Of a DNA stretch of 64,000 bases, positions 24,929 through 62,796 are shown one piece after another; position 1 is the stretch's first letter, and each line of letters starts with the position of its first letter. The notes beneath the pieces are model-generated. The model saw only the letters and a program-made list of their open reading frames with translations, had not been told where the DNA came from and made no database searches. Location: assembly GCA_020444545.1 (NCBI GenBank), contig JAHLKT010000001.1, positions 310,001 through 374,000 on the forward strand, written 5' to 3'. The stretch is from Desulfarculaceae bacterium (GTDB taxonomy: Bacteria > Desulfobacterota > Desulfarculia > Desulfarculales > Desulfarculaceae). Both the position numbers and the translations under genes were made by a program.

Positions 24929-25036
24929 AAGGCGTTCCGCGCCAAATTAGTCCAGAATGCTGGGATGGCGGTTTTCTGTTTGCGTGCCCCCAGCATATGA
25001 GTCACCATCCGTGGTGAGCACTTTATAAGGGCAACC

Positions 25037-25156
25037 GGCACAGCCAGCCGCCGGCAGACAAGGCGTCTGGCGAGCGAGGGCCGCAGGCGTAGCTGAAACT
25101 ACGTCGAGGCCCGAGCGATGCCAGCAACACCGTATGCCGGTGGCTGGCGAAGCCGG
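25037..25156 (+). repeat. Structured interspersed repeat, family A, copy 1
   Basis: About 120 bp. The ends form a long inverted repeat (CAGCCAGCCGCCGGC near the left, GCCGGTGGCTGGC near the right), and the centre holds a second hairpin (GGGCCGCAGGCGTAG with CTACGTCGAGGCCC). Three more copies lie at 57478-57693, 59042-59166 (inverted) and 62677-62796. This copy ends 15 bp before the selD start codon, so it would be in the selD leader if transcribed. Confidence 0.8.
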
Positions 25157-25171
25157 CGATTAGGAGACAAG

Positions 25172-26215
25172 ATGGGCGACGACCCCAAGCTGGCCGAAAA
25201 AGCCCGCGCCGCCGGTTGAGCCGCCAAGATAGGTCCGGCGGATCTGGCGCGCATACTCCAGGGGCTGCCCACGGAAGAGCACCCCGACTTGTTGGTGGGC
25301 CTGAACACCGCCGACGACGCCGGGGTCTATCGTCTCACCGATGAGATCGCCCTGATCCAGACCCTGGACTTCTTCACCCCCATCGTCAACGACCCCTACC
25401 TCTTCGGGCGCATCGCGGCCACCAACGCCCTGAGCGACGTGTACGCCATGGGCGGACGCCCGCTCACCGCCATGAACATCTGCTGCTTCCCGGTGAAGGA
25501 CCACCCGGTGGAGATTTTCCGCGAGGTGCTCCGGGGGGGCATGGACGCGGTGCACCAGGCGGGCGCGGTCTTGGCCGGGGGGCATTCGGTGGAGGACCCG
25601 GAGCTGAAGTACGGCCTCAGCGTCACCGGGGTGGTGCACCCGGACCAGCTGGTGACCAACGCGGGCCTGAGCGCGGGCCAGGTCTTGGTGCTCACCAAGC
25701 CCCTGGGCACCGGGGTGATCGCCACGGCCTTGAAGGCAGGCCTGGCCAGCCAGGAGGCGGTGGCCAGCGCGGTGGAGGTGATGACCGCGCTCAACGCCCC
25801 GGCCGCCGAGGTGATGAGCGCCTGCGGGGTCAAGGGAGCCACGGACATCACCGGCTTCGGGCTCATCGGCCACGCCCTGGAGCTGGCCTCGGCCTCGGGC
25901 GTGGGCCTGGAGATCGAGGCGGGCGCGGTGCCCATCATCCCCGAGGCGCGGGAAATGGCGGCCATGGGCCTGGTGCCCCTGGGCAGCCACGCCAACCGCA
26001 ACTTCTGCGCGCATAATTTGAGCTTCCGGGGAACCCCGGAGGAGATTCAGGTGGATCTCTTGGCCGACGCCCAGACTTCGGGAGGCATGCTCCTGGGCCT
26101 GGACCCGGATCAGGCTGATCGGGCCTTGGACCTGCTTGCCGAGCGGGGAATCAAGGGCGCGGTGATCGGCCGGGCGGTGGCCGAGCATCCCGGCGTGCTG
26201 GAGCTGATCTTCTAG
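25172..26215 (+). CDS. selD: Selenide, water dikinase (selenophosphate synthase) with selenocysteine
   Basis: 347 residues when the in-frame TGA at 25217-25219 is read as selenocysteine (residue 16). GGAGA precedes ATG 25172. The context is RAAGUAAKIGP, where other SelD proteins have GxGC(U)xxKxxP, so Sec sits at the catalytic position. The rest is a full-length AIRS-type enzyme: DDAGVY metal site, TNALSDVYAMGG, AVLAGGHSVEDPE, GATDITGFGLIGH. It makes selenophosphate from selenide and ATP, needed for its own translation. Read without Sec, the gene would look 5'-truncated. Confidence 0.95.
25217..25245 (+). promoter_or_regulatory. SECIS-like element just after the selD UGA codon
   Basis: The UGA is followed at once by a small stem (CCGCC 25221-25225 with GGCGG 25237-25241) whose loop holds AGGTC (25231-25235). 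Bacterial SECIS hairpins start close behind the UGA and carry a GGU in the apical loop for SelB, as here. The stem is short and was judged by eye. Confidence 0.6.
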
Positions 26216-57373: not shown

Positions 57374-57765
57374 CCGGCCCGGTTCGAGTTGGCGAAGGGG
57401 ATTGTTGGGTTGGAACCAGCTGGCGAGGAAGCTGCCAAACCGCCGCGAACCCGAAGAGCGAATCGCTCTAGATTAGCGGCACAGCCAGCCGCCGGAAGAC
57501 GAGGCGACCCAAGGCTTGGGTGGCCGACGGGTTACGGCGGGAGCAACAGGCGCTTAAGAAATGATTAGTTGCGCCGACCCGCTTTGCCGGCAGCGGCACG
57601 CTGCCTGGCAAGCGAGGGCCGCAGGCGTAGCCAAAGCTACGTTAAGCTCCGAGCGCGGCCAGCAACAAAGTATGCCGGTGGCTGGCGCAGCCGTATCTTG
57701 CAAAAGCGGCGGCAGAGGTTATACTTGCGGTTTAAATCGAGCACACGCCTGAGGAGGCGATAGAA
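57374..57765. other. Intergenic region between rho and rpmE, mostly repeat
   Basis: 392 bp. From 57478 to 57693 it is an enlarged copy of repeat family A. The rest is a short stretch after the rho stop and 70 bp before the rpmE start, where GAGGAGG gives the ribosome site. No gene. Confidence 0.65.
57478..57693 (+). repeat. Structured repeat, family A, copy 2 (enlarged)
   Basis: The outer ends match copy 1 (GGCACAGCCAGCCGCCGG and TGCCGGTGGCTGGCGCAGCC), and the central hairpin is there as GAGGGCCGCAGGCGTAGC with GCTACGTTAAGCTCCGAGCG. Between them near the left end is an extra ~95 bp, partly self-complementary, that the other copies lack. Confidence 0.7.
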
Positions 57766-58077: not shown

Positions 58078-59016
58078 ATGAACCCGGCCAACGTGGGAGG
58101 CCAGGCGGTTATCGAGGGGGTTATGATGAAAGCCCCCTCGCGCCTTTGCGTGGCGGTCCGCCGTCCCTCCGGCGACATCCTGGTCAAGAACGACCCCCTG
58201 CGCTCCCTGGCGGCCCGCTGGCCCATGCTGGGCTGGCCGTTTTTGCGCGGCCCGGTCATCCTGGGCGAGACCCTGGTGCAGGGCATGAAGGCCCTGTCCT
58301 TCTCGGCCCAGCAGGCCTTGGAGGAAGAGGGCGAGGAGCTGGGCTCCTGGGCCCTGCTGCTAACGCTGGTGGCGGCCATCGCGGCGGGCCTGGGCCTGTT
58401 CGTGGCCGTGCCCCATCTGCTGTCCCTGGCCCTGGGCCGCGTGGTGCCCGGCGGCTACGACACCCACAGCTTCTGGTTTCATCTGGTGGACGGCCTGATC
58501 AAGGTGGCCATCTTCGGGGCCTACCTGTACATCATCTCCCTGATGCGCGACATCCGGCGGGTGTTCGAGTATCACGGGGCCGAGCATAAGGCCATCTACT
58601 GCTACGAGTCCGGCGGCGAACTCTGCGTGGAGGCGGCGCGGGGCTATTCCCGCCTGCACCCCCGCTGCGGCACCGCCTTCCTGCTGGTGGTGCTGGTGGT
58701 CTCCATCCTGGTCTTCGCGGTGGCCCTGCCTTTCGTGCCCCGCCTGGCCGAGGCCGGCTGGCTCAACCAGGCCCTCTTGATCGCCCTGAAGATCGTGCTC
58801 ATGCTGCCCATCGCCGGGGTGTCCTACGAGGTCATCCGCCTGGCGGGCAAAAAGCAGGGGAAGGGCATCTGGGGCGCCCTGATCTGGCCCGGGCTTCAAC
58901 TTCAGCGCCTGACCACCCGCGAGCCTTCCGACGACCAGATCGAGATCGCCCTAGCCGCCCTGAAGGCCGCCACCTGCACCGACAAGGACCAGGAGGCCAG
59001 CATCTGCGTGCTTTAA
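58078..59016 (+). CDS. DUF1385 membrane protein
   Basis: 312 residues. It starts with the family motif VGGQAVIEGVMMKAPSRL. Four or so membrane helices follow (LLLTLVAAIAAGLGLFVAV; FLLVVLVVSILVFAVALP; LIALKIVLMLPIAGVSYE) with the Cys/His loop YHGAEHKAIYCYESGGELC and SRLHPRCGTAF, likely a metal or redox site. Its function is unknown, but it is regularly found between rpmE and prfA. It starts 21 bp after rpmE. Confidence 0.9.
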   Translation: MNPANVGGQAVIEGVMMKAPSRLCVAVRRPSGDILVKNDPLRSLAARWPMLGWPFLRGPVILGETLVQGMKALSFSAQQALEEEGEELGSWALLLTLVAAIAAGLGLFVAVPHLLSLALGRVVPGGYDTHSFWFHLVDGLIKVAIFGAYLYIISLMRDIRRVFEYHGAEHKAIYCYESGGELCVEAARGYSRLHPRCGTAFLLVVLVVSILVFAVALPFVPRLAEAGWLNQALLIALKIVLMLPIAGVSYEVIRLAGKKQGKGIWGALIWPGLQLQRLTTREPSDDQIEIALAALKAATCTDKDQEASICVL

Positions 59017-59041
59017 GCCCGCATATTTCAGGAAGACAGCG

Positions 59042-59166
59042 CCTCCGGCTGCGCCAGCCACCGCCATACCGCGTTGCCGGCTTCGCCCGGGCCTGGACGT
59101 AGCTACTCGACTAGGCCGGCGGCCCTCGCTCGCCGGACGCCCTGGCTGGCGGCGGCTGACTATGCC
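59042..59166 (-). repeat. Structured repeat, family A, copy 3 (inverted)
   Basis: Reverse orientation, between the DUF1385 gene and prfA. On its own strand it begins GGCATAGTCAGCCGCCGCC and ends TGGCGGTGGCTGGCGCAGCC, so the outer stem is AGCCGCCGCCA with TGGCGGTGGCT; the base changes relative to copy 1 keep the pairing. Confidence 0.75.
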
Positions 59167-59298
59167 GGTGGCGAGCGCAACCCTTCTTCTGATAACCTTA
59201 AGTCCTATTATTACGGGGCTAATGGATGCAGGCTCGATGTTCCAGCCGCCCATTTCTCCTGAAATAAGCGAGCTAGCCCCCCTGGTTGGTGAAAAACT

Positions 59299-62611: not shown

Positions 62612-62676
62612 AGCGCCCCGACCTGGGCCCGTCACTGTTTCAGCGCCCGATAGGACTATCTTCCCGCACCACCTTC

Positions 62677-62796
62677 GGCACAGCCAGGCGGCGGCAGACA
62701 AGGCGCGGGCAAGCGAGTTCCGCAGGCGTATATGCCAATACGCCGAGGAAACGAGCGCCCCCCGCAACACCGTATGCCGTCGTCTGGCGAAGCCGC
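62677..62796 (+). repeat. Structured repeat, family A, copy 4
   Basis: Between murA and comEC. Begins GGCACAGCCAGGCGGCGGC and ends GCCGTCGTCTGGCGAAGCC; the centre is TTCCGCAGGCGTAT with ATACGCCGAGGAA. Compared with copy 1, both outer and central stems have changed bases in pairs (GGGCC/GGCCC becomes TTCC/GGAA). It ends 26 bp before the comEC start. Confidence 0.8.

Follow-up and report, generated by a model that had tools for sequence, protein, structure and literature searches.

Probable ERIC-type mobile hairpins in Desulfobacterota: a repeat family with fixed loops and rewritten stems

The analysed window, 64,000 nt of DNA from a Desulfarculaceae bacterium, contains a ~122-nt element in four copies, which have in common one long hairpin with paired changes. 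We consider it probable (roughly 70%) that these repeats are non-autonomous mobile hairpins of the ERIC (IRU/RU-1) type, from a branch that has spread through the Desulfobacterota. The repeats keep their loops while their stems co-vary, occur in high copy number, occupy a locus in one related species and leave the matching locus empty in another, insert as composites at TA, often within a TAG/TAA stop codon, and fold like ERIC. ERIC elements have been under study since 1990.

Results

Four copies in the window

An earlier note on this DNA had placed four copies of a structured repeat beside selD, rho/rpmE, prfA and comEC. These neighbours were confirmed, with rpmE recognised by its sequence. 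Copies 1, 3 and 4 lie where the note had put them (Table 1), as does the start of copy 2 (57477), but that copy is split: its 5' arm (57477-57506) is parted from the remainder (57605-57694) by an insert. The stem changes quoted at the time, GGGCC/GGCCC versus TTCC/GGAA and GTAG/CTAC versus GTAT/ATAC, are genuine.

Table 1. Repeat copies and associated features in the window
Feature	Position	Strand	Context
Copy 1, core hairpin, 122 nt	25035-25156	+	gene stop ~107 nt upstream on one side, selD on the other
Copy 2, core hairpin split by an insert	57477-57694	+	between rho and rpmE
~98-nt insert within copy 2, CAAGGCG loop	57507-57604	+	
Copy 3, core hairpin within a composite element	59045-59168	-	DUF1385 gene on one side, prfA on the other
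Composite element that contains copy 3	59016-59273	-	terminal inverted repeats; TA flanks at 59014-59015 and 59274-59275
Copy 4, core hairpin	62675-62796	+	comEC starts 27 nt downstream

Homologous inserts (~95-98 nt) occupy the same loop in three other copies (L020, L031 and L036). The insert of copy 2 is missing from the copies of two congeners (G001 and G006) at the matching site, and in two cases an insert-bearing copy has a G001 counterpart without it. Given these insert-free counterparts and the use of the same loop in several copies, the ~98-nt segment looks like a nested, site-preferring insertion. Separately, the selD gene (window 25172-26215, +) has an in-frame TGA (ARAAG-U-AAKIGP), so that SelD is probably itself a selenoprotein.

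Copy number and distribution

Using blastn, ~40 copies were found within the source genome. A covariance model (R1) built from 36 of its own copies, with palindromic reverse-strand echoes removed by eye, raised this to ~60; the search of genome and relatives that the earlier note had proposed also returned many copies in all seven congeners searched, and in a member of another genus of the same family (G010). The remaining family and class relatives sampled yielded no copies. R1 matched 45 of 395 sampled Desulfobacterota genomes. Copies from ~30 of the genera with R1 matches were aligned (A3), and a second model (R2), built from A3 alone with the source genus left out, at E<=1e-6 matched 172 of the 395 genomes, from 112 of 245 genera. 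That similar elements occur in other Desulfobacterota, as the note had stated, is thus borne out. At one locus (L247, G296:C16:46733-47189) three core copies stand in tandem with a spacing of 169 bp. No match was obtained in viral contigs (one exact pattern) or in plasmids and phages (one query each), and literature searches, by motif string as well as on repeats of this sort in Deltaproteobacteria, gave nothing relevant.

A probable constraint on one folded strand

The element is an imperfect palindrome of ~122 nt. It forms a single long hairpin, interrupted by internal loops (ACA/GAA close to the base, CAAGGCG/CAACGCAG halfway up the stem, and tandem G-A motifs) and topped by an apical stem of GGCGTAG/CTACGTC. 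Copy 1 has a folding z-score of -10, and in 3/3 copies tested folding favours the sense strand over its complement. In a sequence-only MAFFT alignment of the 36 copies of the source genome, 95.3% of the cells pair and 20 of the 41 pairs show changes on both sides. Paired-change cells number 86 versus 19.4 in shuffles (0 of 500 shuffles reached 86), and shifting the pair partners by 1-3 columns abolishes the signal. Across the ~30 other genera of A3 we counted 528 both-side changes versus 166 in shuffles, affecting 39 of the 41 pairs, with stems rewritten and loops kept; these counts lean high, since A3 was fitted to the covariance model. Single sequences folded without alignment give the same kind of hairpin. 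The excess of paired substitutions, whose absence from many-copy alignments the note had named as a refutation, is present within the genome as well as across genera.

The mismatched internal loops are the best-conserved parts of the element across the ~30 genera. In paired columns G-U (106) outnumbers A-C (33; 21 columns versus 7, P=0.013), which identifies the sense strand as the folding strand. Together with the strength and phylum-wide extent of the paired change, this polarity suggests constraint on a single folded strand.

Paired change can also arise when one arm of a palindrome is copied onto the other. In one family of genomes (f31), private changes are mirrored between the terminal repeats of single copies (10 versus 0.9 expected from shuffles), so some paired changes are no evidence of selection. 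A perfected apical stem is likewise seen in one E. coli copy of ERIC (L310). Arm-to-arm copying may therefore add to some of the matching changes and explain part of the paired change. That it accounts for the whole, the repeats being neutral palindromic mobile elements whose arms are matched by hairpin template switching rather than by selection on the fold, is very improbable in our judgement: such copying would erase mismatched loops, whereas it is these that are conserved best, and the polarity of G-U over A-C would be unexpected. The earlier reading of the paired changes as a sign of selection on a folded RNA or hairpin DNA accordingly holds in that the changes are real, strong, phylum-wide and biased to G-U over A-C, but needs qualifying in that part of them may stem from arm copying.

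Presence, absence and a TA target

We compared the matching regions of five congeners (G001, G006, G005, G004 and G002). Each window copy is present in some genomes and absent from others at matching loci. The copy 1 site is empty in G001 and G006; that of copy 2 is occupied in G001 and G006 and empty in G002, G004 and G005; that of copy 4 is occupied in G001 and G005 and empty in G004 and G006. The composite of copy 3 offers the clearest example: G001, where the site is empty, reads GTGCTGTAGCC, and the source genome reads GTGCTTTA[element]TAGCC. Its left TA belongs to the DUF1385 stop codon, and G005 carries an element in the opposite orientation at this same TA. A TA-bounded empty site was likewise found for another composite of the source genome (C1, 414.5 kb).

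Composites sit a fixed distance away from stop codons, and the stop at this distance is TAG or TAA in 21 of 21 cases and TGA in none, versus 34% TGA in these genomes (P=1.8e-4). Since the terminal repeat starts with G, TA+G restores a TAG stop, as can be read directly from the sequence. TAG is the commonest stop codon in the source genome, G001 and G006 (40-46% of predicted genes), despite ~67% GC.

Core-only copies, which are without the outer repeats, are numerous in the genus. With genes called as hexamer-scored ORFs rather than taken from curated annotation, 26 of 36 such copies have an end 1-13 nt away from an opposite-strand stop codon, and spaces between divergent genes contain none of the 36. 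A TA occurs within 9 nt of the 3' end in 25/36 (2-9 in control windows) and near the 5' end in 8/36, and because this enrichment is confined to the 3' side, the ends of core-only copies are not fixed. Several copies in other genera lie 0-9 nt from a stop and obey the same rule, as far as approximate, ORF-based calls can tell. Terminal repeats also occur ~111 bp apart with no core match between them (G000:C4:293377-293505, and L282 in G010); this is a shorter, core-less element. In genomes of family f31 (G188, G335, G316, G235, G352) the terminal repeats AGCCCGCATTTCTCACCA pair at discrete spacings of ~39, 67-73, 117, 162 and 214 bp.

These data also bear on whether the repeats are a dispersed functional RNA (3'-UTR or terminator-like) that transcript-level selection maintains site by site, with mobility as the mere route of spread. 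Single-strand polarity with G-U over A-C, conserved internal loops, an upstream gene co-directional with the core in 29/36 copies, and copies at one matching site (site D) that hold the fold as the sequence changes would all suit such an RNA. Copies are nevertheless gained and lost among congeners at the same loci, their gene neighbours are unrelated, and adjacency to stop codons is accounted for by TA targeting, at least for composites. We regard this explanation as unlikely. The structured-RNA reading of the earlier note thus stands as regards the apparent constraint on the fold, but the copies are not static RNA genes: they are mobile insertions, found at a locus in some genomes and missing from the matching locus in others. 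Some of them form part of a larger element that bears terminal inverted repeats and is bounded by TA.

Known repeat systems and the search for a partner enzyme

With RUP and Correia (NEMIS) elements the repeats share terminal inverted repeats, a TA target and many copies, and with REP/BIME/REPIN sequences they share the form of intergenic multi-copy palindromes, some of them in tandem. They differ from the former in that carriers are without an IS630-type transposase domain and internal loops are conserved across genera, and from REP in size (122-258 nt versus 20-40) and in having no consistent Y1 transposase partner. As candidates for an IS630 partner, DDE_3 domains (PF13358) are missing from all eight genomes of the source genus and from G010. 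As candidates for a RAYT partner, Y1_Tnp domains are missing from G001, G004, G006, G007 and G010, all of which carry many copies. Nor was a longer, autonomous element with the same terminal repeats seen: pairs occur only at the fixed spacings of ~39-220 bp, with none at 1-3 kb. We therefore give very little credence to an origin as a REP/RAYT-type palindrome or as an IS630-derived miniature element of the RUP or Correia type, despite the resemblances.

Rfam 15 contains no such family; it gave no match at or above gathering score in the window, none at E<=0.1 on eight loci and chance-level matches only on 20 further loci. The only Rfam model to match E. coli ERIC over its whole length was the Vibrio RNA AS5 (RF02818, V_AS5), with E-values down to 9e-9 at three loci (L305, L306 and L309), below the gathering score. 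Given this whole-length match, that antisense RNA family may consist of ERIC copies. The same ERIC-like model did not match the Desulfobacterota copies.

Comparison with ERIC

As the architecture resembled that of ERIC, we fetched real ERIC loci, using an ERIC consensus as query. Twelve loci form set A4, and two more at ybhJ-ybhI bring the records to fourteen; they are partly non-independent, five representing one place (ybhJ-ybhI) and two Rahnella loci one site. R1 recovered 6/6 E. coli loci at full length (20-33 bits), and R2 recovered 14/14 records (28-53 bits), with 12/12 A4 loci in register. The opposite strands of ERIC, which have the same stems, scored at most 8.5 bits and the background at most 10.4 bits; that is, matches were confined to the sense strand. 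In the reverse direction, a model built from the ERIC loci alone (R3) had sense-strand Desulfobacterota cores as its top matches in 37 kb. The best of these, L267, aligns the model's terminal TA with that of the neighbouring stop codon. In whole-genome searches R3 was insensitive (2 of 198 matched).

At the level of nucleotides we found no similarity to the ERIC consensus. A sequence-only profile across genera scored ERIC near zero, where 0-5 of 1000 structure-preserving shuffles equalled it, so that the two were barely separated, and the own-genus profile did not report the ERIC loci at all.

The likeness lies in the architecture. Like ERIC (IRU, RU-1), the repeats are intergenic single long hairpins of ~122-127 nt, here a 122-nt core palindrome in ~60 copies. 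Their loops come in the same order, AAGGCG opposite CAACGCAG, AGCGAG opposite GAGCG and tandem GA below the apical stem, and several ERIC copies likewise lie next to an opposite-strand stop codon. ERIC is described as ending in TA and as duplicating TA (PMC2759123, PMC2229807); in our material TA duplication at the ends is found in the composites, whereas core-only copies have TA enrichment at the 3' side only. Unlike in ERIC, the composites bear an extra outer pair of terminal repeats and a 5' domain; stem sequences are unrelated, and the host phylum differs. Because fold and loops match those of enterobacterial ERIC, this kind of element has a precedent. Common descent of the two is likely though not proven, and convergence is possible.

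Discussion

If the repeats are indeed ERIC-type mobile hairpins, they would be moved by an enzyme acting in trans, and the hairpin would be recognised or copied as one folded strand. TA targeting in a GC-rich genome would steer insertions to stop codons and the 3' ends of genes, where they would do least harm. Once inserted, a hairpin might be transcribed together with the neighbouring gene. In Yersinia, according to the passages of PMC2229807 that cite De Gregorio 2005, ERIC affects the stability of the upstream transcript in an orientation-dependent manner through RNase E. By analogy, hairpins at the 3' ends of genes could alter mRNA decay in Desulfobacterota.

A broader idea, which we put forward as speculative and think rather doubtful, is that ERIC and the Desulfobacterota repeats are two branches of one superfamily of mobile structured strands. 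It would be ancient and would have persisted across phyla because the conserved internal loops are recognised in a strand, either RNA or single-stranded DNA, that folds on itself, with arm-to-arm copying taking place as the elements move.

New here are probable ERIC-type hairpins outside enterobacteria and vibrios, Enterobacteriaceae and Vibrionaceae being the only hosts in the literature searched (2024 review, PMC10969869). For annotators, a repeat that recurs in Desulfobacterota genomes now has a name. The Desulfobacterota branch amounts to hundreds of natural variants of an ERIC-type element, and a relative with rewritten stems and fixed loops would show which parts are recognised. The origin of these elements, their mobility and their effects on mRNA thereby become testable in sulfate reducers.
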